Translations under genes and position numbers: made by a program
In this document: piece by piece, positions 9,562 through 45,696 of the stretch
Layout: each line of letters opens with the position of its first letter
How positions within the stretch are numbered: the stretch's first letter is position 1
Source of the DNA: Methylovulum sp.
Lineage (GTDB): Bacteria > Pseudomonadota > Gammaproteobacteria > Methylococcales > Methylomonadaceae
Assembly (NCBI GenBank): GCA_028712695.1
Contig: JAQTQZ010000006.1
Location: forward strand, 85,434 to 149,433
Length of the DNA stretch: 64,000 nucleotides
Reading direction: 5' to 3'
The notes under the pieces: model-generated
Seen by the model: the letters and a program-made list of their open reading frames with translations, nothing else
Databases searched by the model: none
Told to the model about the DNA's origin: nothing

Positions 9562-10341
9562 ATGGCTACAATTACGCAGGATGAAGAAACGGCAGACCTG
9601 ACCCCACTCGCGGACTGCACGCATTGTGACTACCGCGAAACCTTGCTACAGGCTGACCAATGCAAGCCGGGCGATTGTTGCGTAGTCGCCAATAGCGGCC
9701 GGCAAATCGACCGGTTTTTCAAGGCAAATCCCGGCTATGCAGCCGACTATACCCATGACTACTTTTGGGAGCGCCGGGCCATTGCCGCCCGTTATTTGCC
9801 CACCAGCCAATTGCGCCCGTTGCTGACCGACCCCGACGAGGCGGTCAGGCGGGTGCTGGCTTACCGTGTGCCGTTGGAATGGCTGGTGGAATTGCGCGGT
9901 GACCCTGACCGGGAAGTCAGGATCACCGTCGCTGACCGTTTACCGGAGCAAGAATTGGAGGTGATGGCCAATGACCCTGATTATTTGGTGCGGGTCTATG
10001 TCGCCAAACGCTTGCCGGTAGGCCGTTTATTCAGAATGGTTGCTGATCCTGACGATCAAGTCCGGCGCACGGTGGCCGAACGCATACCGCCCGTCAGCTT
10101 GGGCCTGATGGTCAACGATACTGAAGTCGATATTCGCCGTATTGTCGCCCAGCGCATAGAAGCCGATGACCTGGCCTTAATGATTGAAGACAGTGATTGG
10201 ACTGTCCGTTATGAAGTGGCGTTGCGCGCAGCGCCAAGCTTGTTGCAACAGCTGTTTGATGACGCGGAAGAAGATGTCCGGTTGAGCGCCAAACAACGTT
10301 ATAACGCGTTATCTATTGCGGGCAGTGTGAGCCCGCAATAG
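9562..10341 (+). CDS. 4Fe-4S leucine-rich-repeat-variant (LRV) protein
   Basis: A 259-residue protein with an N-terminal Cys cluster (C-x2-C at residues 19-22, then C and CC at about 33-39), which in the Azotobacter LRV protein binds a 4Fe-4S centre. It is followed by about seven 24-residue LRV repeats with the pattern DPDxxVRRxVAxRLP (for example NDPDYLVRVYVAKRLP, ADPDDQVRRTVAERIP). The family is found almost only beside nif genes; its exact role is unknown. It is almost joined to nifF (1 bp gap), and its stop abuts the leftward ApaH-like gene. Confidence 0.9.
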   Translation: MATITQDEETADLTPLADCTHCDYRETLLQADQCKPGDCCVVANSGRQIDRFFKANPGYAADYTHDYFWERRAIAARYLPTSQLRPLLTDPDEAVRRVLAYRVPLEWLVELRGDPDREVRITVADRLPEQELEVMANDPDYLVRVYVAKRLPVGRLFRMVADPDDQVRRTVAERIPPVSLGLMVNDTEVDIRRIVAQRIEADDLALMIEDSDWTVRYEVALRAAPSLLQQLFDDAEEDVRLSAKQRYNALSIAGSVSPQ

Positions 10342-14922: not shown

Positions 14923-16512
14923 CTATCCCAGTTGGCTACTTAAATAATCCTCATAATTTCCACTAAAATCAACAATCCCGTGCGGGGTCAATTCGATGAT
15001 CCGCGTTGCCAGCGATGACACGAACTCGCGGTCATGGCTGACGAAAATCAAGGTGCCGGGATAATTTTCCAGTGCGGTATTGAGCGATTCAATCGATTCC
15101 ATATCCAAATGGTTGGTCGGTTCATCCATGACCATGATGTTATTTTTTTGCAAAATCAGCTTGCCAAACAGCATCCGGCCTTTTTCGCCACCGGACAACA
15201 CCTTGACGGATTTGTTGATTTCATCCTGCGAAAACAATAACCGCCCCAGCGTGCCGCGCATGGTCTGGTCGTCATCGCTTTCTTTGCGCCATTGCCCCAT
15301 CCAGTTGATTAATGTCAAATCTTCGGCAAAATCTTCGGCATTGTCTTGTGGGAAATAACCGACTTCTGAATTTTCAGACCATTTCACGTTGCCTGCATCA
15401 GGCGTCAAATCACCGACCAAGGTGCGCAATAACGTCGATTTACCAATACCGTTAGGGCCAATTACGGCAATCCGCTCGCCAACAGCAACCATCAGGTTTA
15501 GGTTTTTAAACAACGGTTCGCCGCCGTAACCTTTGCTTAAGCCTTCGACTTCCAACGCCAAACGGTGCAGTTTTTTGGTTTGGTCGAAGCGGATAAACGG
15601 GTTGACGCGGCTAGAAGGCTTGACCTCATCAAGCTTGATTTTTTCCAACTGCTTGGCGCGTGAGGTGGCTTGCTTGGCTTTGGACGCATTCGCAGAGAAG
15701 CGGCTGACAAACGTCTGCAGTTCGGCAATCTGGGCTTTTTTCTTGGCATTTCCAGAAAGCAAGCGTTCGCGCACTTCGGTTACGGCGATCATGTAATCGT
15801 CATAATTCCCCGGATAAACGCGCAATTCGCCATAATCCAGATCAGCCATGTGCGTGCAGACGCTGTTTAAAAAATGCCGGTCATGCGAGATGATAATCAT
15901 CGTGCAGTTGCGCTCGTTAAGCACGTCTTCCAGCCAGCGTATCGTGTTGATGTCAAGGTTGTTGGTCGGCTCGTCCAACAGCATGATGTCGGGGTTGGCA
16001 AACAAGGCTTGCGCCAGCAACACCCGCAATTTCCAGCCCGGCGCGACGGCGCTCATCAGGCCATAATGCTGTTCCACCGGAATATCCAGGCCTAACAAAA
16101 TTTCCCCGGCTCGCGCTTCGGCGGTATAGCCGTCCAGTTCGGCAAATTCAACTTCCAGCTCGGCTACCTGCATCCCCTCGTCTTCAGACATCTCCGGCAG
16201 GCTGTAGATGCGGTCGCGCTCCTGTTTGACCTGCCAGAGCTCTTTATGCCCCATGATAACTGTGTCAATCACGGTAAACTCTTCAAACGCGAATTGGTCT
16301 TGGCGCAGGTTTCCTAGGCGTTCGTTAGGCGTGACCGAGACGTTGCCTGCCGAAGGCTCCAAGTCGCCGCTAAGGATTTTCATCAGCGTCGACTTGCCGC
16401 AGCCATTCGCGCCGATCAGGCCGTAACGGTTGCCGTCGCCAAACTTAACGGAGATATTTTCAAACAGGGGCTTAGCCCCGAACTGCATGGTGATATTAGC
16501 GGTAGAGATCAA
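14923..16512 (-). CDS. ybiT: ABC-F ribosome-associated ATPase YbiT
   Basis: A 529-residue tandem ABC ATPase without membrane segments, near-identical in layout to E. coli YbiT (530 residues). First Walker [10 protein letters not shown] is at about residue 35, with [11 protein letters not shown] linker rich in Lys/Ala follows ([27 protein letters not shown]). Second Walker A is GPNGIGKST, with the full [12 protein letters not shown] signature and [13 protein letters not shown] proteins bind the ribosomal E site and relieve stalling. The start used is a TTG at 16512, matching the E. coli N-terminus (VTMQFG region); no in-frame ATG is close. Confidence 0.95.
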
Positions 16513-32538: not shown

Positions 32539-33486
32539 ATGGAACAATTGACCGACTTAAAAGCCATTTTACACTCCAAACGCGCCAATATTTATTATCT
32601 GGAAAAATGCCGTGTCATGCAAAAAGACGGGCGCGTGCTGTACCTGACCGAAGCCAAAGACGAAAATCTGTATTGGAACATCCCCATCGCCAACACCACC
32701 GTTATTTTGTTGGGCACTGGCACGTCCATCACCCAAGCCGCCATGCGCATGTTGGCAAGCGCCGGCGTGTTGGTCGGCTTTTGTGGCGGCGGTGGCTCGC
32801 CATTGTTTTCAGGCAGTGAAATCGAATGGCTCAACCCCCAAAGCGAATACCGCCCCACCGACTACGTGCAAGGCTGGCTAAGCTTTTGGTTTGACGAAGC
32901 CAAGCGGCTCAGCGTCGCCAAAACCTTCCAACACGCCCGCATCACCTACATCAAACGCATCTGGGACAAAGACCGCGAACTGAAAGCCGAAAACTTCTTC
33001 AGCGACGACAGCCAACTCAGCATCGCCCTGGACAGCTACACCGACCACATCGACACCGCCCAAAAAGTCGGCGACCTGTTGCAACGCGAAGCCCTGATGA
33101 CCAAACAACTGTACCGCTACGCCGCCAAAGCCACCGGGCAAGACGGCTTTAGCCGCGACCACCAAGCCACCGACCTGGCCAACGGCTTCTTAAACCACGG
33201 TAACTACCTCGCCTACGGCCTGGCCGCCACCACGCTTTGGGTGCTGGGCATACCGCACGGCTTTGCCGTCATGCACGGCAAAACAAGGCGCGGCGCGTTA
33301 GTGTTTGACATCGCCGACCTCATCAAAGACGCCATTGTCTTGCCCTGGGCGTTTGTTTGCGCCAAAGAAAAAATGACCGAACAAGAATTCCGCCAGCAAA
33401 TCCTGCAAAAATTCACCGACCACAAAGCCTTGGATTTCATGTTCGAGCAAGTCAAACAACAAGCCATGCGGGGTGACTGGTTATGA
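32539..33486 (+). CDS. cas1: CRISPR integrase Cas1 (type I-F)
   Basis: A 315-residue Cas1 of the I-F branch. Metal ligands are visible at E184 (LQREALMTKQLYRYAAK), H246 (FAVMHGKTRRG) and D257/D260 (VFDIADLIKD). It forms the spacer-acquisition complex with the Cas2 part of Cas2-3. It is the first cas gene and overlaps cas2-3 by 4 bases (ATGA). The operon promoter should lie in 32476-32538, but no strong match is seen. Confidence 0.97.
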   Translation: MEQLTDLKAILHSKRANIYYLEKCRVMQKDGRVLYLTEAKDENLYWNIPIANTTVILLGTGTSITQAAMRMLASAGVLVGFCGGGGSPLFSGSEIEWLNPQSEYRPTDYVQGWLSFWFDEAKRLSVAKTFQHARITYIKRIWDKDRELKAENFFSDDSQLSIALDSYTDHIDTAQKVGDLLQREALMTKQLYRYAAKATGQDGFSRDHQATDLANGFLNHGNYLAYGLAATTLWVLGIPHGFAVMHGKTRRGALVFDIADLIKDAIVLPWAFVCAKEKMTEQEFRQQILQKFTDHKALDFMFEQVKQQAMRGDWL

Positions 33487-36422
33487 TGGTCACCTTCGTC
33501 AGCCAATGCCAGAAAAAAGCCCTAACCCGCACCCGCCGCGTCCTCGACGCCTTCGCCAACCGCATCGGCGACAACACCTGGCAAACCATCATCACCGAAG
33601 ACGGCCTGATTGCGGTTAAAACCCTGCTACGCAAAACCGCCACCAAAAACACCGCTGTTTCCTGCCATTGGCTACGGTCTAGGAGCAGGAGCGAGTTGGT
33701 TTGGGTTGTGGGGAATCGTAACGCCTTTAATTCACATGGCATAGTGCCTGTAAACACCACCAGCAAAGAGTTATTTATGGATATTTCAAACGATAAACCT
33801 AACCCGAACTGGCTTTATGCCAACACCCATTTACAGTCATTGGCAGAGCATTTATTTGCCGTCGGCTATGTCGCAGAACAACTGCATAGGCGATTGATTG
33901 CCAATAAAAATGACCACTCCGAAGCCATTTTTGTGGCTGGCTGCCTACATGACTTGGGCAAGATTGATCCGGCGTTTCAGCAATGGGTAACAAATCCCAA
34001 GAAAAAGGCTTTTGAAGCCGAAGACGGGCAACACATCGACGATGCCAAGTTTAGTTTTGAGAAACACCCAAGACATAACGAAGTGTCGGCATTGCTTTAT
34101 CACCTCGTTGACCAGATAAGCCTAAAAACTATCAATGCCGACAATAAAAAGTCCATCAAGCACGTTGTCTACTGGCATCATGCCAAGCCGTTCCGTAAGG
34201 ATGGCGATATTAAAACCTATGGCGACATTTACAGTAAGCTCAGTAAAAACTTAAAAGACTTTGATGTTAAACAGTTATTAGAGAAGACGATAAAATTGCT
34301 GAAAACAGTCAGCACAATAGCGGCAAAATATCAGGATCAGGAAGAATCTGTCTTATGCAAAATATTTCATGAGGACATTGACTTAGATGTACTCGCAACG
34401 TTAGAGAGCCAGGGATTACCGGATTATAAAAAATATGAGCTACAAGACAACATCGAGAAATATAAAACACAAGTTAACTCCAATGCCAACAATAACACCA
34501 TGCGTGCCTGTGTCATTTCCGCAGATCGAATTATTTCAGGGCTTAGTGCTTCAGATTTGCAGGAGCATATCCAAAAACACACGTTGGATAATCTGGTAAA
34601 CGACATTTTGCTCAATGAATCAACATTATGTTCTTATATTGAAACCTGCCTAAAGCAATTTCCCGCTAGCGAGCGTACAACCAAACAACAGGAAATTGCC
34701 AATCAATTAACCAAAACGCAAGATGTTGCGGTACTAGCAGGCCCAGCTGGTTGCGGCAAAACTAAAATTGCTTTGGAATGGGTAAAACTCAAAAATGTAC
34801 AACAACTGATTTGGATTTGCCCAAGAGTGCAAATCTGCCAAGGCTTGTTTAAAGAATTGATTTCTACGGACTACTTCGAGTTATCAATACCCAGCATAAA
34901 AATAGAAATAAACACCGGAGAGTTTAAATTTACCAATCAATGGGATAAGCCAACGCATGAAAATGATTATTTCCGTGGCAACATTGTTATCACCACCATT
35001 GACCAAATTTTTAATGCCATCATTACCCATACTAAAGTTAACAGCCTAATTAACTTTTTGAATGCCCATGTGGTATTCGATGAATTCCATGAATACGTCA
35101 ACATGCCAGCCTTTAACTTGTTATTTGCTGAGTTGATCGCCTGCAAGCAGCAACAGGCGCAACGCGCCAATACCTTGTTAGTGTCTGCGACGCCGCATTA
35201 TTTCTACCTACAAGAATTATTAGGCATAGACCATGAAGACATCATTGAAATGCCGTCCTTTAACCCTAGCCGGTATCAACTAGACTTTAAAACTTTTAAA
35301 GAAAGCAAACAGGACAACAGCAATCCCCTATATCAAGTACAAACCGCTAATACCATTGTTATCAGCAACACCGCGTTGACGGCGCAAAGAAGTTTCATCC
35401 GCAACCAACATGATGAAAATGCCGTATTGCTGCATTCAAAATTTAAGAAAAGCGATAAAAAGCGTTGGTTTAACGAAGTGTTTGAGTCCTTCAAGAAAAA
35501 CGGTACCCGTCAATTTACCGTTTTGCGTGCCGGCCCGATTGTGCAAGCGTCATTGAATATCACCTGTGACTATATGGTTAGCGAGATGACGACAGCGGAA
35601 AATTTGCTACAGCGACTTGGGCGTTTAGACCGCTTTGGGGTTAATAAAAACAATATCTTAACCATTGCCATCACAGACGATGTAAAGCAAGGCAAATGCA
35701 AAGACAGTAGTTCAAGATTTTTAAACAGCATTCACTCATTACAGTCGGCAAAATCCTGGTATCAATTTCTGCAAACCGAACTGGACGATAGAGTTTTTAC
35801 TTTGCCGGAACTCTACGCACTCTACAGAAGCTACTACCAATCTGATAATGTCAAAAAATTAATTGAATCAGATTTATTGGCCTCATTAAAAGCCAGTGTG
35901 CAATTAATCAGCCTAAAGGTTATTGACCCTAGCACGATCCCACCTAAAAAAGCGGTAGAAAAAGGCCGAGTCAAAATCAGCAAAACGTCGTTGCGCGGTG
36001 ATAACCGTTTTGTGCAAATGGCGATTTGTGATGTAAATGACCCTAAACAGCTAAAGTTTATTGACCAATATGCTTACTCAATAACCTCTAACGAAAAAGA
36101 AGACATTGATAACTTAACTGAGGATTTGAGCAGGTTAAGAAATTTGGATTTGATTAATCACATGGCCAAAAAGCATGGAAACATTGATAGCTCTCATCCA
36201 GTAAAAGGTATACCTGCAAACAAAATGTTACTCCGCTGTAAAGTGATAGAGGGGTATGCCAGAGACCCGGAGCTTCCTATTTACTCAAGTTACACCAAAA
36301 GTGATCTCGATAATGTAGGCGGTGAGAAAGAACAGCATAGCGAAGCAATTTACTATGCCATATGCGACAAACAACCCATCGGGGCAATATCAATCAAGCA
36401 TTTAACATCAACAGAGGATTAA
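33483..36422 (+). CDS. cas3: Cas2-3 fusion: adaptation subunit plus HD nuclease-helicase
   Basis: A 979-residue type I-F Cas2-3. Residues 1-95 are the Cas2 domain. The HD nuclease follows (HLQSLAEHLFAVG, then CLHDLGK with HD at 156-157, and later YWHH). The SF2 helicase has Walker A AGPAGCGKTK at about 420, DEFHEY (DExH) at about 532, SATPH, and motif VI LQRLGRLDRFG at about 709. A C-terminal domain ends the protein. It cuts and unwinds DNA marked by Cascade and helps acquire spacers. In I-F2 loci cas7fv normally follows directly; here vapBC intervenes. Confidence 0.97.
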   Translation: MMVTFVSQCQKKALTRTRRVLDAFANRIGDNTWQTIITEDGLIAVKTLLRKTATKNTAVSCHWLRSRSRSELVWVVGNRNAFNSHGIVPVNTTSKELFMDISNDKPNPNWLYANTHLQSLAEHLFAVGYVAEQLHRRLIANKNDHSEAIFVAGCLHDLGKIDPAFQQWVTNPKKKAFEAEDGQHIDDAKFSFEKHPRHNEVSALLYHLVDQISLKTINADNKKSIKHVVYWHHAKPFRKDGDIKTYGDIYSKLSKNLKDFDVKQLLEKTIKLLKTVSTIAAKYQDQEESVLCKIFHEDIDLDVLATLESQGLPDYKKYELQDNIEKYKTQVNSNANNNTMRACVISADRIISGLSASDLQEHIQKHTLDNLVNDILLNESTLCSYIETCLKQFPASERTTKQQEIANQLTKTQDVAVLAGPAGCGKTKIALEWVKLKNVQQLIWICPRVQICQGLFKELISTDYFELSIPSIKIEINTGEFKFTNQWDKPTHENDYFRGNIVITTIDQIFNAIITHTKVNSLINFLNAHVVFDEFHEYVNMPAFNLLFAELIACKQQQAQRANTLLVSATPHYFYLQELLGIDHEDIIEMPSFNPSRYQLDFKTFKESKQDNSNPLYQVQTANTIVISNTALTAQRSFIRNQHDENAVLLHSKFKKSDKKRWFNEVFESFKKNGTRQFTVLRAGPIVQASLNITCDYMVSEMTTAENLLQRLGRLDRFGVNKNNILTIAITDDVKQGKCKDSSSRFLNSIHSLQSAKSWYQFLQTELDDRVFTLPELYALYRSYYQSDNVKKLIESDLLASLKASVQLISLKVIDPSTIPPKKAVEKGRVKISKTSLRGDNRFVQMAICDVNDPKQLKFIDQYAYSITSNEKEDIDNLTEDLSRLRNLDLINHMAKKHGNIDSSHPVKGIPANKMLLRCKVIEGYARDPELPIYSSYTKSDLDNVGGEKEQHSEAIYYAICDKQPIGAISIKHLTSTED

Positions 36423-36470: not shown

Positions 36471-36701
36471 ATGAAACAACTGTTATTAGAAATTGATGAC
36501 ATCACAGAAGCAAAAATTAACGCCGCTGCGAAAACAGCAGGGCTTTCCACCCAGCAATGGTTACAACAAATTATTGATGAAAAAACGGTCACAACTTGGC
36601 CCAACTCCATTAAGGCATTAGCCGGAACATGGCAAGACATGCCTTTTGCAGAGGAGTTACGCGCTGCTGAAGGACAAGATATTTTAAGGGAAGATTTTTG
36701 A
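36471..36701 (+). CDS. vapB: VapB-type antitoxin (ribbon-helix-helix)
   Basis: A 76-residue protein: an N-terminal strand then helix-turn-helix typical of RHH repressors (MKQLLLEIDDITEAKINAAA), followed by an unstructured acidic tail (WQDMPFAEELRAAEGQDILRE) that would wrap the toxin. Its stop overlaps the toxin ATG by one base (TGATG). It begins 48 bp after the cas2-3 stop, so it could be read from the cas promoter as well as its own, autorepressed one. Confidence 0.8.
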   Translation: MKQLLLEIDDITEAKINAAAKTAGLSTQQWLQQIIDEKTVTTWPNSIKALAGTWQDMPFAEELRAAEGQDILREDF

Positions 36702-37102
36702 TGTATGCATTAGACACCAACACCGTGATTTATTTTTTTAAGGGTATGGGCAATGTCGCTAGCCATTTATTTAGCTTGCCGCCACATGAAATCGCGTTGC
36801 CTTCGGTGGTTTTGTATGAACTTCAAGTTGGCATTGCCAAGTCAAACTCACCCGAAAAACGCAAGAACCAATTGGCTGAACTGCTCACGGTTGTGCGCGT
36901 GTTGCCGTTTACAGAACATGAAACAGCAATTACCGCCCAGCTTAGGGCAACTTTAGAAAAGACAGGTACACCGATTGGCCCGTTGGACATGATGATTGCG
37001 GGCATTGCGTTAGCCAACCAAGCCACCTTAGTAACGCATAACACCAAAGAGTTTTCGCGCGTCGGTGGGTTGCGTTTAGAGGACTGGTTTGAATCTCTGT
37101 GA
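36701..37102 (+). CDS. vapC: VapC-type PIN-domain toxin RNase
   Basis: A 133-residue PIN-domain nuclease with all acidic active-site residues: D5 (YALDTNTVIYFF), E40 (VLYELQVGI), D96 (GPLDMMIAG) and the late NTKEF at 114-118. VapC toxins cut tRNA or rRNA. It is translationally coupled to vapB. A terminator follows 7 bp after the stop, so the pair forms a closed unit inside the cas gene cluster. All key residues are intact, so it is probably active. Confidence 0.92.
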   Translation: MYALDTNTVIYFFKGMGNVASHLFSLPPHEIALPSVVLYELQVGIAKSNSPEKRKNQLAELLTVVRVLPFTEHETAITAQLRATLEKTGTPIGPLDMMIAGIALANQATLVTHNTKEFSRVGGLRLEDWFESL

Positions 37103-37108
37103 GTCTAA

Positions 37109-37138
37109 TACCCCGCCATTTGCGGCGGGGTAATTTTT
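37109..37138. terminator. Terminator after vapC
   Basis: CCCCGCC-ATTTGC-GGCGGGG followed by TAATTTTT, a 7-bp GC stem extended by TA/TA. It ends the vapBC (and any cas1-cas2-3) transcript, so cas7fv needs its own promoter. The same hairpin lies just beyond the leftward pseudo-CRISPR repeats and might end that RNA too. Confidence 0.85.
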
Positions 37139-37140
37139 CA

Positions 37141-37209
37141 TTTCTAAACTGCCTGTGCGGCAGTAAACGCAAGAACATAGTTTTCTAAGCTACTTATGCA
37201 GTAGCGAGC
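37141..37209 (-). CRISPR. Degenerate two-repeat mini-CRISPR in reverse orientation (candidate regulatory crRNA)
   Basis: Two 28-nt pseudo-repeats lie opposite in orientation to the main array. The one at 37141-37168 differs from the array repeat at two positions and keeps stem CTGCC/GGCAG with loop GCACA. The one at 37182-37209 is more diverged, yet its stem CTACT/AGTAG keeps perfect pairing through compensatory changes, and its 3' handle CTTAGAAA is intact. Only 13 nt lie between them. Read leftward, processing by Cas6f would give handle CTTAGAAA plus guide ACTATGTTCTTGC. The guide seed matches a CC-flanked site at 37250-37260. This resembles CreA/CreR-type crRNA-like regulators known from other CRISPR types; function here is inferred. 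Confidence 0.75.
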
Positions 37210-37249
37210 CTATTTTACTATACAAAAATTTACGACATTAAATTTGTAA

Positions 37250-37287
37250 AAGAATATAGTGGTGTTTTTTTATTATGTGTTTATAAT
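37250..37287. promoter_or_regulatory. cas7fv promoter region with pseudo-crRNA target
   Basis: TATAAT at 37282-37287 lies 63 bp before the cas7fv start. The expected -35 zone (about 37259-37264) overlaps a site whose minus strand reads CC-ACTATATTCTT. The CC is a type I-F PAM, and the next 11 bases match the pseudo-spacer ACTATGTTCTTGC at 10 of 11, with the mismatch at position 6. The -35 itself is weak, so the promoter call is moderate. Confidence 0.55.
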
Positions 37288-37350: not shown

Positions 37351-38325
37351 ATGAATAAAATCACAGGTATTAGAAGTGTTGACTTCAAAATCACAGCATT
37401 AGGTTATGGTGTGGTCAACTGGAATGGCCCGACAACTTTACAAAGCGACGGGCGAATTATCGACAACCATTCCATGCCCAAATTGCGGGGTTATACCAAT
37501 CTGACGGGTAAGGAAAGCGAAAAAGGCTACAAGCTCAAAAAAGACCCGTCAGAAATCAATTTCAAAGAAACACCGTTGTACATCAGTCAAAATTGCATAC
37601 GCCATCATTTATTTAGGGATCAGGCTTATGACTTACACTACGCAAAAGATAAAAGTCTGCTTGCTGTTTTAACATCAATTACTGGCTTGATAAGAGGCTA
37701 TGTTGTGCCGTCAAGCCAATGCAAACGTACCAGCCCGCTGCTATTGGAAGATTTTGTTGACCAAATCGGCAACGGCAATTTCGAGCAAATGGGGCGTTCC
37801 GGCTCGAAAGAAAAAGACAAGGACGACAAAGGTGGCGATGTTGCCAGCAATTCCTTTTTCTCCAAAACCACTTTCGGCGAAACCGAATATCTCGCTTACG
37901 GTTCAATCAGCATTGAACAATTGCAATTCATTTCGCTGGATAAAAAATTCGACCGCGCCGCAATGGTGATTAAAGAAGGCGAAGGCGAAAAAATCGCCGA
38001 AGCCGTACAAGCCTTTATCAAAAGCCTAGACCCAACCCGCGAACCAAAAGCAGCTTTCCACCCTAACTATGTACGTGGTGGCACTATTTTTGAGGAAGGC
38101 GAAACAGGCATTTTATTGGACAACGTAGCCATCGACATACTCGTGCAAGAAACCCTAAACATGATTAACGAACTGAGCATCCGCCAAGCCAAAGGCTATA
38201 TGTATGTTGATAGTGTGCTGGTTGACTACAACGACAGCCACAAAATGATGCGTATCAAACGCAGCGAAGGCGACATCAGCGAAACGCCAAAATCACCTTA
38301 TGCGGTTTATTTTTACGCCAAATAA
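37351..38325 (+). CDS. cas7fv: Type I-F2 Cascade backbone Cas7fv
   Basis: A 324-residue Cas7 of the I-F variant (I-F2, I-Fv) subtype, recognisable by [21 protein letters not shown] at the start and LRGYTNLTG soon after. Several copies coat the crRNA spacer. AGGAAAAC precedes the ATG. A flexible charged loop ([16 protein letters not shown], residues about 150-165) is probably the thumb. I-F2 lacks cas8f and a small subunit, as here. It is the first gene after the vapBC/pseudo-repeat insertion and needs its own promoter. Confidence 0.92.
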
Positions 38326-38334
38326 GGAGCGGTT

Positions 38335-39372
38335 ATGCGTATTACCATCAAATACGAAGCGTCTTGGCGCAATTCGTTTTTGGGCGGCTCCAACAACGAA
38401 CCCGTACCCAAAAATGGCAGGGAGTTTTTAGGCTCCATGACGGCTTTGGGAAAAAAAGATGCCCAAGGTGAGTATTCCAATTTCATTAAGCGGGAGATTA
38501 GCAAGGATACCGTCATGGGCGTGTTGAATCGGCTGATTGGCGATCAACGCAAACTTTACCAATCGAGGCAATCTGCCGATTACTTCTTTGCCGAACTTGA
38601 GCCGCACATCACCTTCAACGACCGACAAGACCGCACTAAGCCAATCAATAGCGAAATGGTTTATATACGCAACATGACGGGCAACACCGACCAGAACGCA
38701 TTTACGGGCATGATAAAAGCTAATGACCCCGTGTTTAGTGAGAGCTATTCCAATGCTTTTTGGGGCGTATTAACTTTGGATTTTGACAGTTTATGCCAAT
38801 TTGTCAGGCAGGCTGATTACCAGATTGACAGCGTTGTGCAATTTGACCCCATCAGTGTTTTACAACAGCTGGAAAACTTGAATGCGTTAAAAGCCATCGA
38901 CCTGACAGAAACCGTGCAGTTAACGTTGGCGGTTTTGCAAAAAACCTTTCCAGACGTGGCCTACAAAATCACTAACGACAAAATCAAGCCGATTGAGCTT
39001 TATTGTTCAGCTTTGTACTTGCAAATTGCGCGGCTAAGCCAACACCATGATGTGTCCAAAGCCCTCACCAAAAGCGGCGGCATCAGCGGCATTTCCAAAC
39101 GTGGTTTTACACCCAAGGATTTTATGAACACCTATACCACCGGAAATAAAAAGCCGATTTGGGGCAATCCCTATTTGCTGAAAGAAAAGCGCAAAGGCGA
39201 AGGCGAAGTCACATCGCTGTTAACCAAAGCCAATGGAACGCTGGACATTCAACTGGACATACCTGAAGAAACAGCAAAACAATTAAAAGAGAGGATAGAA
39301 AACGCAGGTGTTTCTAGTTTCTACCTGGGCAAAAAGGGCTTGGCGTATATTGATGGCGAAATTAGGATTTAG
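38335..39372 (+). CDS. cas5fv: Type I-F2 Cascade subunit Cas5fv
   Basis: A 345-residue Cas5 of the I-F variant subtype: MRITIKYEASWRNSFLGGSN, then the I-F2-specific enlarged middle region (about residues 90-230), and a GISGISKRGFTPKDF segment. It caps the crRNA 5' handle. In the I-F2 complex its extra helical part recognises the PAM and replaces the missing Cas8f. It starts 9 bp after cas7fv and ends 3 bp before cas6f, so the three are one operon. Confidence 0.92.
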   Translation: MRITIKYEASWRNSFLGGSNNEPVPKNGREFLGSMTALGKKDAQGEYSNFIKREISKDTVMGVLNRLIGDQRKLYQSRQSADYFFAELEPHITFNDRQDRTKPINSEMVYIRNMTGNTDQNAFTGMIKANDPVFSESYSNAFWGVLTLDFDSLCQFVRQADYQIDSVVQFDPISVLQQLENLNALKAIDLTETVQLTLAVLQKTFPDVAYKITNDKIKPIELYCSALYLQIARLSQHHDVSKALTKSGGISGISKRGFTPKDFMNTYTTGNKKPIWGNPYLLKEKRKGEGEVTSLLTKANGTLDIQLDIPEETAKQLKERIENAGVSSFYLGKKGLAYIDGEIRI

Positions 39373-39375
39373 GAT

Positions 39376-40011
39376 ATGAAACACTACATTGAAATAACCC
39401 TAATAGAGAACTCGGACATCAATCTCTTTAGCCTCTGGTCAAAAGTCTACCAACAAATCCACCTAGGCTTAGTCGAAATGCAGGACGACCAAAAACGGGT
39501 GCCAATAGGCGTATCGTTCCCTGAGTATGTGGTTGGCGGTCGTTCCCGGCTTCCTGCCTCTCACGACACCCGCACATCCCTGTGCATCGATAAATACAGC
39601 GTGTTGGGCGGTAAGTTGAGGCTGTTTGCCCAAGATGAAGCGACACTCGCTAAGTTTGATGCGGCAAAATGGTTAGCGCGGCTGCGCGACTATGTGCATT
39701 GCACCGACATCTGCCCCGTGCCTGAAAAGCTCAAAGGCCACACGGTTTACCAACGCGAGCAGCCCAAAACCAACAAGGAACGCCTAGCCAGGCGCTATGC
39801 CAAAAGGCATGGCATGGACTATGACACGGCTTTGGCGTGTTATGGCAAGATGGCGCATGAATCCATAACAACACCGTTTATACGTCTAAAAAGCTTGGGC
39901 AGCGACAACACGTTTTGTTTGTGGATTAAAAAAACGGTGGTTGCCGAACCGTCGGGGGCGACTTTCAGCAGCTATGGCTTAAGCGCCGTTTCCAGCGTCC
40001 CCGACTTTTGA
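39376..40011 (+). CDS. cas6f: CRISPR RNA endonuclease Cas6f (Csy4)
   Basis: A 211-residue Cas6f. The catalytic His is H29 (VYQQIHLGL), as in Csy4, within the typical start MKHYIEITLI. IGVSFPEYV, LGGKLRLFA, the basic RNA-binding helix RLARRYAKRHG and the C-terminal FSSYGLS strand are all present. It cuts at the base of the repeat hairpin and stays bound to it. It should process both the main array and the degenerate repeats upstream of cas7fv, since their stems are conserved. Confidence 0.95.
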   Translation: MKHYIEITLIENSDINLFSLWSKVYQQIHLGLVEMQDDQKRVPIGVSFPEYVVGGRSRLPASHDTRTSLCIDKYSVLGGKLRLFAQDEATLAKFDAAKWLARLRDYVHCTDICPVPEKLKGHTVYQREQPKTNKERLARRYAKRHGMDYDTALACYGKMAHESITTPFIRLKSLGSDNTFCLWIKKTVVAEPSGATFSSYGLSAVSSVPDF

Positions 40012-40142: not shown

Positions 40143-43100
40143 GTTCACTGCCGCACAGGCAGCTTAGAAAATTTATGTTTTTGATTTATAATGTTTTTAT
40201 TTGTTCACTGCCGCACAGGCAGCTTAGAAAAAGACCGGACGACATTGCCAACAGTATTGCCTGTTCACTGCCGCACAGGCAGCTTAGAAAGCATTAAAGC
40301 CGAAGTCAAGCGCATCCGCGCCGTTCACTGCCGCACAGGCAGCTTAGAAATAGTTTATGGTTGCCTTGGGCGATTATGTCTGGTTCACTGCCGCACAGGC
40401 AGCTTAGAAAATATCTGATTGGGAAAAATCAGCATCGAACTTGTTCACTGCCGCACAGGCAGCTTAGAAATGTACCAACGCAATCCGGCGGAGCACCGGA
40501 TTGTTCACTGCCGCACAGGCAGCTTAGAAAACCGCCAAGGTTGTATTCTATCTCGATTGCTTGTTCACTGCCGCACAGGCAGCTTAGAAACATCGATAGC
40601 CAAGGTTGTATTCTACCTCGATGGTTCACTGCCGCACAGGCAGCTTAGAAATAAAGCAATACTTGTAAGCTACTGGACAATTGGTTCACTGCCGCACAGG
40701 CAGCTTAGAAAAGTAAGCGTCAAAAGCTTCCTCGGTGACAAAAGTTCACTGCCGCACAGGCAGCTTAGAAATTGAGCAAAGCAAAAATAAAGCTTGCTTT
40801 GCTGTTCACTGCCGCACAGGCAGCTTAGAAAGCTTTCAAGCGTTAAGACAGCGACGCGAAATTGTTCACTGCCGCACAGGCAGCTTAGAAAGCTCTTGCC
40901 CTTGCATCCTCCCATGCCGCTACGTTCACTGCCGCACAGGCAGCTTAGAAATACGTTGCCGTCAGGCGGATGTGGTTATGAAGGTTCACTGCCGCACAGG
41001 CAGCTTAGAAATAGAGTTTTAGGCCAATTGTAAACTTGGAGTTGTTCACTGCCGCACAGGCAGCTTAGAAAGCCACACAAGCTGATGCCGTCGGCGAAAC
41101 TTCGTTCACTGCCGCACAGGCAGCTTAGAAATTAAATTCTTTGACCATGCGCGACTGTTCGGCGTTCACTGCCGCACAGGCAGCTTAGAAAATCCAGGAA
41201 CTGTTTGTACTTGTGTTAATGTCTGTTCACTGCCGCACAGGCAGCTTAGAAAAAATATCAGGCCAGGATTTAAAGCCAACAATCGTTCACTGCCGCACAG
41301 GCAGCTTAGAAAAAGTTTATGTAGTTAATAGTAAAGAGTAAGGCGTTCACTGCCGCACAGGCAGCTTAGAAATAACGCTTTGTTAAGGCGCAAGCCGCAC
41401 ACGCGTTCACTGCCGCACAGGCAGCTTAGAAATTCAACCGCTCATACAACGTAATAATATCCAGGTTCACTGCCGCACAGGCAGCTTAGAAAAACAGAAG
41501 TTATTGCAGTCGGTTGTACCTCACGTTCACTGCCGCACAGGCAGCTTAGAAAACGCGTACAGAGATTGGGTAACCCTCGCAGAGGTTCACTGCCGCACAG
41601 GCAGCTTAGAAAGTCTTTGCCTGGGTTATGGAATTTCATTTTGTGTTCACTGCCGCACAGGCAGCTTAGAAAATATCGACCGACCCGCCTTTACCTGTTG
41701 CAACGTTCACTGCCGCACAGGCAGCTTAGAAAGTAAATTTAGTGCTTTACACTGATGATGGCACGTTCACTGCCGCACAGGCAGCTTAGAAATTTTATTG
41801 CTGCCCCCGACGCCCAACTCCCTAGTTCACTGCCGCACAGGCAGCTTAGAAAACATATAAGACCCAGATATATCCCCATTTACGGTTCACTGCCGCACAG
41901 GCAGCTTAGAAAAGCTTAATGTCATCAGTGCCTAGCATCGACAAGTTCACTGCCGCACAGGCAGCTTAGAAAATGCCTGGAACGGGCGCGCATTTCAGCG
42001 GCATGTTCACTGCCGCACAGGCAGCTTAGAAATTGTTCAGTCAACGCGTATGGATGACCAGAAAGTTCACTGCCGCACAGGCAGCTTAGAAAATTTTTTG
42101 AGTGAGTTAAAAGTCATTATTGCCGTTCACTGCCGCACAGGCAGCTTAGAAAAGTCAGACATTAACACCGTACAGCAAAGCACCGTTCACTGCCGCACAG
42201 GCAGCTTAGAAATTTAGGTTCGTCAGACTTAATCCCTCTTTACTGTTCACTGCCGCACAGGCAGCTTAGAAAGAAGAAACTTGGTCTTTTATGGGTCATG
42301 ATCTGTTCACTGCCGCACAGGCAGCTTAGAAAACATGGCGAATGCTCTTGATCTTGCTTTTTGTGTTCACTGCCGCACAGGCAGCTTAGAAAGGAAAAGT
42401 CGATAAGCTTGACGAGTCACTTATGTTCACTGCCGCACAGGCAGCTTAGAAATGAATACTGTATACCTTTTTCGCTCATGTCTATGTTCACTGCCGCACA
42501 GGCAGCTTAGAAATTACCGTCTAACTTGATTGCCGTGCCGTCAAAGTTCACTGCCGCACAGGCAGCTTAGAAAATTTATTAAGTCTAATAAATTATTTAT
42601 CGAAGGTTCACTGCCGCACAGGCAGCTTAGAAATGGATAAGTTATAGCAGTTCTGCCGGTAGTTTGTTCACTGCCGCACAGGCAGCTTAGAAATTTAACT
42701 GTGCCAAAAACGATATAGCCAGCAAGTTCACTGCCGCACAGGCAGCTTAGAAAAGTCACAAGAAATAGAGGAGGGCGCGTTATACGTTCACTGCCGCACA
42801 GGCAGCTTAGAAAATCTTATGAGCCCGATGTAGTTACCGGTCCGGGTTCACTGCCGCACAGGCAGCTTAGAAAGCTCACAAAATGATGAAGTGTTTTTAA
42901 TTATTGTTCACTGCCGCACAGGCAGCTTAGAAATGCCCATCATCTGATTATTGCCGTGATGTCAGGTTCACTGCCGCACAGGCAGCTTAGAAAAACAACG
43001 GCGGCACAGCGGTTTGATGTTGTAGGTTCACTGCCGCACAGGCAGCTTAGAAATATCCTGTCTTATCATCCAGCTTTTCGGATGGGTTCACTGCCGCACA

Positions 43101-45696
43101 GGCAGCTTAGAAATTGACGATGACATATAAAGGGTCGTTGTGGAAGTTCACTGCCGCACAGGCAGCTTAGAAATTTGCTCGATGGCGAATATGTTGAACG
43201 GCATTGTTCACTGCCGCACAGGCAGCTTAGAAATTGGCCTTGGGTGCCGACTAATGTTTTGTAAAGTTCACTGCCGCACAGGCAGCTTAGAAAAGAATAA
43301 GAGTTATCAAAACCGACATGGGTACGTTCACTGCCGCACAGGCAGCTTAGAAATAGGAAGCAACTGGCGTAAATCCGCACCTTGCGTTCACTGCCGCACA
43401 GGCAGCTTAGAAATGACAAGTACGGCGGCTTGTCGTTCAACCCGTGTTCACTGCCGCACAGGCAGCTTAGAAAGTTGACGGCATCAAGTCCACCATTTCG
43501 TCCGCGGTTCACTGCCGCACAGGCAGCTTAGAAAGTAGTTGGGGTTGCCGAGTAGGATTTCCCCACGTTCACTGCCGCACAGGCAGCTTAGAAAACTTCA
43601 AATTCATGGTAATACTGCATTGCCTTGTTCACTGCCGCACAGGCAGCTTAGAAAAATCGCTCTACCATCGACAAACCCGTTTTCAGGTTCACTGCCGCAC
43701 AGGCAGCTTAGAAAATTAAGTTGAAAAAATATTCATATTATCTATGAGTTCACTGCCGCACAGGCAGCTTAGAAATCCAGAACATGTCCGGTTTGGATGA
43801 CGGCGCAGTTCACTGCCGCACAGGCAGCTTAGAAAAACGGATCAAACCATTGGAGAAATCAAGCAATGTTCACTGCCGCACAGGCAGCTTAGAAAGGTGG
43901 CGATAACGGCGACTTACTTACCGCTACGTTCACTGCCGCACAGGCAGCTTAGAAAACAATGTGGAGGAAGTGGGCAAAGCATAATCCGTTCACTGCCGCA
44001 CAGGCAGCTTAGAAAGATAATCCAATCTGTTCTGCTCTACTTATTTTGTTCACTGCCGCACAGGCAGCTTAGAAAAAAAGCCCGTATCAATAAAGTTTCA
44101 TCCGCTGGTTCACTGCCGCACAGGCAGCTTAGAAAACTTTAACTACCTTGCCAACCGCTTTTATGAAGTTCACTGCCGCACAGGCAGCTTAGAAAAGTTT
44201 ATTTATCGCGTGCTGAGCGAGTCTATTGTTCACTGCCGCACAGGCAGCTTAGAAATATATTAAATTTGTGAAAAATCTTATTTTTACGTTCACTGCCGCA
44301 CAGGCAGCTTAGAAACTTGGTTTTTTGAAAATCAAGATGGAGAGAAAGTTCACTGCCGCACAGGCAGCTTAGAAATTACGCTCAAGATTTAGAAAACGGG
44401 TGGTCGGGTTCACTGCCGCACAGGCAGCTTAGAAATTTTGTCGATAACTTAAGCGTAAATCTGATCAGTTCACTGCCGCACAGGCAGCTTAGAAATCGAT
44501 TACCGGCTTTTGTGTCGTCAAGTCTATGTTCACTGCCGCACAGGCAGCTTAGAAATTAAACGTGTCGTCAAAAATCTCGGTGAAATTGTTCACTGCCGCA
44601 CAGGCAGCTTAGAAAATCTGGGTTCGAGCATAATGCCGTCTGAAAAAGTTCACTGCCGCACAGGCAGCTTAGAAATGAATCTGTTTATACGCGCGTTAAA
44701 CCTATTAGTTCACTGCCGCACAGGCAGCTTAGAAATACCGGCAGGCCAAGACACCACCGCGCCCGCCGTTCACTGCCGCACAGGCAGCTTAGAAAATGTT
44801 GTCCGGCCATTGGATTACGGCCTTGAAGTTCACTGCCGCACAGGCAGCTTAGAAAACGCCCCTAGATTTGTGCAATCTGATTTTGTTGTTCACTGCCGCA
44901 CAGGCAGCTTAGAAAAAGCAAGATCGCAGCAATGGTAATAAGACCAGGTTCACTGCCGCACAGGCAGCTTAGAAAATATTTTTAAGGCGCAAACGGTCTC
45001 TATGCTCGTTCACTGCCGCACAGGCAGCTTAGAAATTACCTTTGGTTGTCAGGTAGTTTTTCCCTTCGTTCACTGCCGCACAGGCAGCTTAGAAACGATG
45101 ATGATGCTAACTCGAAACAAAACAATTGTTCACTGCCGCACAGGCAGCTTAGAAAATGCAATCACGGCGGCAATGGATGCGCGGGGGGTTCACTGCCGCA
45201 CAGGCAGCTTAGAAAACAATATGTTTTTGCAGACCGCAGGGGTTAGTGGTTCACTGCCGCACAGGCAGCTTAGAAAGCAACTCCCCCCACTCCCAACAGT
45301 ATAAATATGTTCACTGCCGCACAGGCAGCTTAGAAAAGCGTGAAGGGCTGGAACGCGATACGGAAAATGTTCACTGCCGCACAGGCAGCTTAGAAATTGT
45401 CGCCACTCAACTGGCGGATGCGTGGGGCGTTCACTGCCGCACAGGCAGCTTAGAAAGTCACACCTGAACCCTTGGGCTTTACTCGCCAGTTCACTGCCGC
45501 ACAGGCAGCTTAGAAAAGTTAAAATCATAAATCAGTCTCACGACATGGGTTCACTGCCGCACAGGCAGCTTAGAAACGCCTAACTTGGCTACGCAACCGC
45601 GCATATCAGTTCACTGCCGCACAGGCAGCTTAGAAAATTTTCCATGCTTTGCTTTTGGCTGCCACACAGTTCACTGCCGCACAGGCAGCTTAGAAA
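40143..45696 (+). CRISPR. Type I-F CRISPR array, 93 repeats and 92 spacers
   Basis: 28-bp repeats starting GTTCACTGCC and ending CAGCTTAGAAA, with stem CTGCC-GCACA-GGCAG and 8-nt handle CTTAGAAA, recur every 60 bp. By line-by-line reading there are 93 repeats and 92 spacers: 86 of 32 bp and six of 33 bp (numbers 8, 18, 39, 56, 60 and 85 from the leader). I saw no repeat variant, even at the far end, where arrays usually decay. The array lies directly after cas6f. No spacer match within the window was noted by eye. Long apparent ORFs here arise only because 60 is divisible by three. Confidence 0.99.

Follow-up and report, generated by a model that had tools for sequence, protein, structure and literature searches.

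The type I-F2 CRISPR-Cas locus of a Methylovulum species carries a small element that is, with high probability, a crRNA-like autorepressor of the CreR type, predicted to control the operon of its own Cas8-less effector. The element lies in a stretch of 64,000 nucleotides (the window, from contig JAQTQZ010000006.1, whose first nucleotide is position 1 for all coordinates below). It is a mini-array of two repeats that would give a crRNA-like RNA, whose 13-nt guide would take Cas7fv, Cas5fv and Cas6f to a CC site in the predicted cas7fv promoter, with repression as the likely outcome. A pseudo-crRNA that guides the I-F2 complex to its own cas7fv promoter had been proposed in a previous, sequence-only reading; the proposal is supported by a guide-target match that is conserved and covaries in all seven loci found to contain the element (the carriers).

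The type I-F2 locus

The genes follow the type I-F2 (I-Fv) order cas1, cas2/3, vapB-like, vapC, cas7fv, cas5fv, cas6f and array, and are placed on the plus strand. The I-Fv type cas1 (32539..33486; PADLOC Cas1fv, 607 bits) is followed by cas2/3, which encodes Cas3fv (33483..36422; PADLOC Cas3fv, 1505.7 bits). The vapB-like and vapC-like genes (36471..37102) are neighbours outside the proposed mechanism. The first (36471-36701) has no family match and is named from its position, and the second (36701-37102) matches VapC models, all under the cut-off. A predicted intrinsic terminator follows vapC (37109..37132, plus strand). Next come cas7fv, the predicted regulated gene (37351..38325; NCBIfam NF040577, 486.7 bits), cas5fv (38335..39372; PADLOC Cas5fv, 489 bits) and cas6f, which encodes the predicted processing enzyme (39376..40011; TIGR02563, 124.9 bits).

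The main CRISPR array (40143..45696, plus strand) contains 93 repeats, all identical, and spacers of 32-33 nt. Cas8f has no match in the whole genome. With Cas5fv, Cas7fv, Cas6f and Cas3fv present and Cas8 absent, the locus is of type I-F2. In the cas7fv promoter region, the main-array spacers have no CC site with at least 8 of 10 seed matches.

Structure of the mini-array

Two degenerate repeats are located on the minus strand between vapC and cas7fv, 13 nt apart, an arrangement that had been described before and can be read directly from the sequence. Pseudo-repeat 1 (37182..37209), the predicted source of the guide RNA's 5' handle, contains the hairpin CTACT/AGTAG and the handle CTTAGAAA. 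It is followed, on the same strand, by the 13-nt guide ACTATGTTCTTGC (37169..37181) and by pseudo-repeat 2 (37141..37168), whose hairpin CTGCC/GGCAG would supply the 3' Cas6f hairpin. The Rfam family CRISPR-DR4 matches both pseudo-repeats on the minus strand, with 44.1 bits for repeat 2 and 28.5 bits, under the gathering score, for repeat 1.

Pseudo-repeat 2 shares 26 of its 28 bases with the array repeat and has an intact stem, as the sequence-only reading had stated. Pseudo-repeat 1 differs at 7 of 28 bases and its handle is unchanged, again in line with that reading. Four of the seven changes constitute two compensated stem pairs (G-C to A-T and C-G to T-A), by which the 5-bp stem is kept, and the other three fall in the loop or the 5' flank. 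The further statement that every change is compensated is thus correct for the stem and incorrect for these three positions.

The predicted −10 element of the mini-array RNA (TAAAAT, 37212..37217, minus strand) lies 7 nt before hairpin 1, and a TAAAAT or TACAAT box is found 7-8 nt upstream of hairpin 1 in all 7 carriers, so the RNA is predicted to start about at the hairpin. In the carriers repeat 1 has lost its 5' flank and retains the stem (7/7) and the handle, which is complete (8/8) in six of them and 7/8 in L044. Repeat 2 keeps a 5/5 stem in every carrier, and its own handle is down to 3-7 of 8 bases. The parts retained are those that Cas6f processing would need. The folding of the window's RNA is no better than that of shuffled sequences (z −1.2).

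Predicted target site and cas7fv promoter

The predicted target protospacer ACTATATTCTT is placed at 37250..37260 on the minus strand, directly after a CC PAM (37261..37262, minus strand; GG on the plus strand) that is present in 7 of 7 carriers. The guide ACTATGTTCTTGC matches it at 10 of 11 bases with nucleotide 6 as the sole mismatch, and PAM, match and mismatch are all as previously noted. According to the accessible part of PMC7266957, the I-Fv system uses GG as its PAM on the target strand (CC when the guide-like strand is read) and does not recognise TT.

The cas7fv promoter is predicted to have TATAAT as its −10 element (37282..37287, plus strand) and, 17 nt before it, the −35 element GTGGTG (37259..37264, plus strand), a poor consensus that overlaps PAM and seed. 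The placement of the site at the likely −35 of cas7fv is in line with this overlap and with the carriers, since the −35 (GTGG plus two bases) of the best-scoring predicted promoter falls on the PAM in 6 of the 7; in L044 a different promoter-like match scores best. TATAAT occurs 18-20 nt past the PAM in 6 of 7 carriers, and L045 has TATAGT. A second promoter-like match in the window has its −10 inside the target, so that the exact geometry may follow either reading; the target covers the core of the predicted promoter in the window under either of them.

When the 300-nt flank was shuffled with its dinucleotides preserved, 1 of 3000 sequences had a CC site that matched the guide at 10 of 10 positions (nucleotide 6 ignored), or about 3 in 10,000, which makes the earlier estimate of about 1 in 10,000 slightly optimistic. 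The 3.79-Mb genome contains 2 such sites, against 1 for a reversed control pattern, so that such a count is unremarkable and only the location is informative; the second site falls within an apparent coding gene (judged by eye). The pair of repeats could be regarded as the neutral remnant of an old CRISPR array with a target match due to chance. Degenerate repeats near arrays are a familiar sight, and at the single locus the match is rare only to the extent given by the shuffling. The decisive support for an autorepressor is comparative, rather than this single-locus chance figure, and with it the remnant becomes extremely improbable.

Comparison of cas7fv loci

The cas7fv loci were collected from a non-exhaustive scan of species genomes, which gave 64, and from the window's family, in which 40 of 237 genomes have a cas7fv match. 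Together they amount to 80 distinct loci including the window (7 carriers and 73 others), told apart by the sequence around the cas7fv start, by which L065 equals L105; some of the 80 are short contigs or incomplete genes. Each locus was scanned for two features, a hairpin with handle and a CC site that the adjoining guide matches. The carriers are the window, two Crenothrix loci (L021 and L072), L044, L045 (a Pseudomonadales MAG), L089 and L101.

The match between guide and CC site, at nucleotides 1-5 and 7-11, is 10 of 10 in exactly these 7 of 7 carriers, with target sites 67-101 bp upstream of the cas7fv start; 9 matches occur in two unrelated candidates elsewhere. The motif CCACTAYNTTNT is found near cas7fv in 7/7 carriers and 0/73 of the other loci. 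In the latter no stand-alone hairpin and handle whose guide has a 10/10 CC target was found within the 6 kb upstream and the 4 kb downstream of the cas7fv start, where the sequence reached that far. The guide is 12-14 nt long in 6 of the 7 carriers. L045 has a 20-nt guide (9753-9815) that matches at 17 of the first 18 positions, and the mismatch is again nucleotide 6.

At nucleotide 11 the window has T in both guide and target and the other carriers have A in both, and at nucleotide 5 L089 and L101 have C in both and the others T in both. Repeats that persist after the seed match is lost would speak against a guiding role; among the 80 loci all seven carriers keep the match, with covariation. 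In the alignment of the related I-F2 loci, stem, PAM and seed match are kept in 7 of 7, and the seed changes jointly in guide and target. The region is otherwise diverged, and the conserved islands are PAM and seed, the leftward −10, hairpin 1, handle, guide and hairpin 2. A neutral remnant would hardly leave hairpin, handle and guide nearly invariant in seven loci with diverged flanks, nor guide and target that covary.

The repetition of a short motif also suggests a protein-based explanation, in which an ordinary repressor would occupy both copies of an operator, ACTATNTTCT, and the hairpins would be there by coincidence. The motif does occur twice, in direct orientation, in the I-F2 carriers. 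However, one copy always follows a hairpin and handle and the other always follows CC, and this reading is considered highly improbable, also in view of the wider set of mini-arrays described below.

Genomic context and distribution

The presence of the mini-array is related to the space before cas7fv. Among the 73 non-carriers, the preceding open frame ends less than 20 bp away or overlaps in 62, at 20-149 bp in 10 and at 202 bp in one (L042). The gap measures 220-476 bp in the 6 measurable carriers, L044 being near a contig end. The mini-array therefore occurs in 0 of 72 loci with a gap below 150 bp and in 6 of 7 with a gap of at least 200 bp, L042 having a 202-bp gap yet no mini-array. This distribution indicates that the mini-array goes with loci in which cas7fv has room for its own promoter.

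The neighbouring vapBC genes raise the question of whether the element is instead an addiction module like CreTA, or regulates the vapBC toxin and not cas7fv. Genes of this kind are upstream in four of the seven carriers (the window, L021, L072 and L089), and, judged by eye, an antitoxin-like gene adjoins the mini-array of L044 and relBE-like genes adjoin that of L128, a decayed copy considered below. Against this, three carriers lack vapBC, L045 and L101 have no open frame of at least 50 aa between cas2/3 and cas7fv, the target precedes cas7fv, and the only other CC site with a 10/10 match in the genome is not beside vapBC. Moreover, vapBC is found just before cas7fv in 5 non-carriers (L026, L029, L041, L050 and L111). 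The toxin-directed reading is thus very unlikely, and a functional link to vapBC has been dropped. The adjacency reported by the sequence-only reading is real in the window and appears to be incidental.

On a Cas7fv tree of 75 rows the carriers are scattered, with 6 changes for 7 carriers, which suggests that the cassette was probably lost or moved repeatedly. In the window's family 6 of the 40 cas7fv-bearing genomes have the mini-array, and in a class-wide sample of 369 genomes, spread thinly over families, a close pattern is found only in the window's own genome. Beyond the family the I-F2 form is probably uncommon. Viral contigs have no exact copy of the 27-base mini-array pattern, and no phage records match the module.

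A separate observation concerns a Shewanella baltica plasmid typed as conjugative (NZ_CP146611.1, about 15484-15844; L113:8970-9330, minus strand), which contains 8 degenerate I-F-like repeats. Their stems vary from copy to copy and are mostly paired, the handles are mostly kept and the spacers are short. No cas genes are annotated in the 18 kb examined, and weak matches to these repeats occur on Acinetobacter, Psychrobacter and Selenomonas plasmids. The repeats could be a decoy against the host CRISPR.

Mini-arrays in Methylococcales

A covariance model (R1) was built from the 7 I-F2 mini-arrays and run on 237 genomes of the family and 311 of the order. The seven guides were included in the model, which favours similar seeds, and the targets were never used. 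The six carriers of the family score 81-86 bits, and the extra set comprises 21 among the matches listed (at least 21 in all), with scores of 41.6-67.7 bits, spans of 57-70 nt, against 73-76 nt for array units, and guides of up to about 27 nt. Ten proteins adjacent to such loci were scanned; Cas8f accounts for 8 of them and Cas2/3 for 1, and the tenth has no match. The Methylococcales mini-arrays L122-L127, L129, L133-L135, L141, L149-L151 and L153-L156 have cas8f downstream in the 8 checked, and in this set the CC target is often directly before a TTGATT-like −35. L132 (genome G170, of the window's genus) has its mini-array before a Cas2/3 gene, and within nucleotides 1-18 its CC site is mismatched only at 6, 9 and 12.

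The targets were searched as the best match, with no rule on PAM or position. The best site is at a CC PAM in 26 of 28 loci (7 carriers and 21 listed matches), and all 28 sites are on the guide's strand. The two exceptions, excluded from the position and length counts, are L152, which has no CC target, and L128. The latter (genome G146) is the I-F2 mini-array in decayed form: stem 1 is broken, the PAM is TT and nucleotide 9 of the seed is mismatched. Its genome has no cas7fv match, and such decay would be expected if the element no longer serves a purpose.

Type I complexes flip bases 6, 12 and 18 outward. In the 26 CC loci, among the matches listed, nucleotides 1-11 have 21 mismatches in total, of which 16 are at nucleotide 6 (p 3e-13, a rough value as related loci are non-independent) and none at nucleotides 1-5, 7 and 8; nucleotide 12 is mismatched in 15/26 and nucleotide 18 in 12/19. 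Shuffles of the flanks reach the observed match in 0-2 of 3000 for the 21 loci with 10/10, and in 0-9 of 3000 for the remaining five, which match 9/10 (7-9 for three of these). With one locus per seed, guide and own target agree at 185 of 190 positions for the 19 distinct seeds, against 137 in the best of 100,000 permutations, a comparison in which the targets were the best sites already chosen.

The spacing of free positions would fit pairing inside Cascade rather than a protein operator. Nineteen different seeds share the same layout, and their free positions are mainly 6, 12 and 18, which an ordinary repressor does not explain. The same concentration of mismatches weighs against a chance match at an old array, and the remnant-array and protein-operator readings have both been rejected on this pattern together with the covariation. 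The guide lengths point in a similar direction. Among the matches listed they are 12-14, 19-21 and 24-27 nt, with none of 15-18 or 22-23, and the clustering in 6-nt steps has a rough p of 1e-5 (4e-4 with similar guides collapsed).

Proposed mechanism

The autorepressor would work in six steps. A leftward promoter just upstream of hairpin 1, to which the conserved −10 points, would make the RNA. Cas6f would then cut after both hairpins, as the retained repeat parts suggest, and release a small RNA of handle, guide and 3' hairpin, predicted to start CUUAGAAA-ACUAUGUUCUUGC. This RNA would assemble a short complex with about three Cas7fv subunits by the 6N-4 rule. Subsequently, the complex would bind the CC site through nucleotides 1-5 and 7-11, for which matching and covariation are observed. 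Positioned over the −35 region, it would block RNA polymerase, and, judging from the biochemistry of I-F1, its R-loop would be too short to license Cas2/3, so that the promoter is silenced and not cut. Finally, by analogy with CreR, abundant array crRNAs or a disabled complex would lift the repression.

In the I-F1 system studied in PMC7296934, as far as the available part of that paper describes it, a complex with N Cas7 subunits has a spacer of 6N-4 nt. With shortened complexes R-loops form, Cas2/3 is not triggered and binding is weaker (PMC7296934, same portion). Spacers cut by at least 18 nt (a cut of 18 leaves 14 nt) lose phage blocking there. The weaker binding and the loss of blocking count against an autorepressor, since a 13-nt guide could be too weak. 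It is therefore conceivable that the RNA is made and matches its site, and that the 12-14-nt guide is too weak to repress and the RNA acts as a decoy that tunes the supply of Cas6f or Cas7fv. The failure of 14-nt spacers against phage in that one I-F1 system (PMC7296934, in the part available) speaks for the decoy. A target beside a PAM would be superfluous for a decoy; all 7 carriers nevertheless conserve PAM and seed, and the reading is judged decidedly unlikely.

Beyond the autorepressor itself, there is about an even chance that small regulatory Cascades form a class of their own, programmed by the mini-arrays of type I-F. The lengths of the guides would be selected in 6-nt steps (about 14, 20 and 26 nt, for three to five Cas7 subunits), and seeds would follow the cas promoter, with the flipped bases 6, 12 and 18 as exceptions. 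The I-F2 form would be the smallest, a natural particle with a guide of about 13 nt that silences without licensing Cas2/3, and the cassette would make the cas7fv-cas5fv-cas6f operon separate from cas1-cas3.

If the proposal is true, the smallest type I effector, which has no Cas8, can be redirected to the control of its own genes by a guide of less than half the usual length, and the carriers offer natural sequences for very short useful Cascade guides. The signature of free positions every 6 nt and lengths in 6-nt steps could then be used to find such regulators computationally and might help to design type I-F tools that only silence. In carriers, cas expression would also be predicted to rise under phage anti-CRISPRs that act on I-F2.

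Relation to known systems

A close counterpart is CreR, a crRNA-like RNA that, in the part of its description available, would guide the Cas complex to the promoter of the operon encoding it, in general with no toxin involved. The Methylovulum element shares with it an ectopic pair of degenerate repeats beside cas genes, the retained repeat parts that Cas6 processing and the handle require, and a PAM-flanked partial guide match, preserved in evolution, in the predicted promoter of its own operon. On the other hand, the effector here is I-F2 without Cas8, the controlled gene is predicted to be cas7fv and all carriers but one have a guide of 12-14 nt.

Shmakov et al. (2023, in NAR) reportedly described mini-arrays with partial complementarity to cas promoters, chiefly that of cas8, and tested one I-F1 case. 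The I-F1 mini-arrays before cas8f have the same layout as the I-F2 element, and L122 and L123 share with it the hairpin CTACTG..AAGTAG and the seed start ACTAC. However, among the matches listed their guides are mostly of 19-27 nt, and the I-F1 site is often just before a TTGATT-like −35, whereas the I-F2 site overlaps the predicted −35.

Two other systems are more distant. In CreTA the first repeat of CreA is also more diverged than the second (here 7 against 2 changes), as given in the accessible section of PMC9458426. According to the same section, CreA represses an RNA toxin (PMC9458426), whereas the target here precedes cas7fv and not vapBC. Racr RNA anti-CRISPRs resemble the element in their mimicry of the type I-F repeat (PMC10651486, available part). 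They are described there as repeats that occur singly in the DNA of viruses and plasmids and sequester Cas6f and Cas7f (PMC10651486), whereas two repeats, a guide and a target are found here inside a cas locus. The element is not a Racr, being a pair of repeats in a cas locus and not a solitary repeat on a mobile element.

The literature searched has no description of such an element in I-F2, though the 2023 work of Shmakov et al. or the primary CreR paper may list one. The kind of element is already known from CreR and the I-F1 mini-arrays, and what is noteworthy here is the very short guide together with the 6-nt signature.
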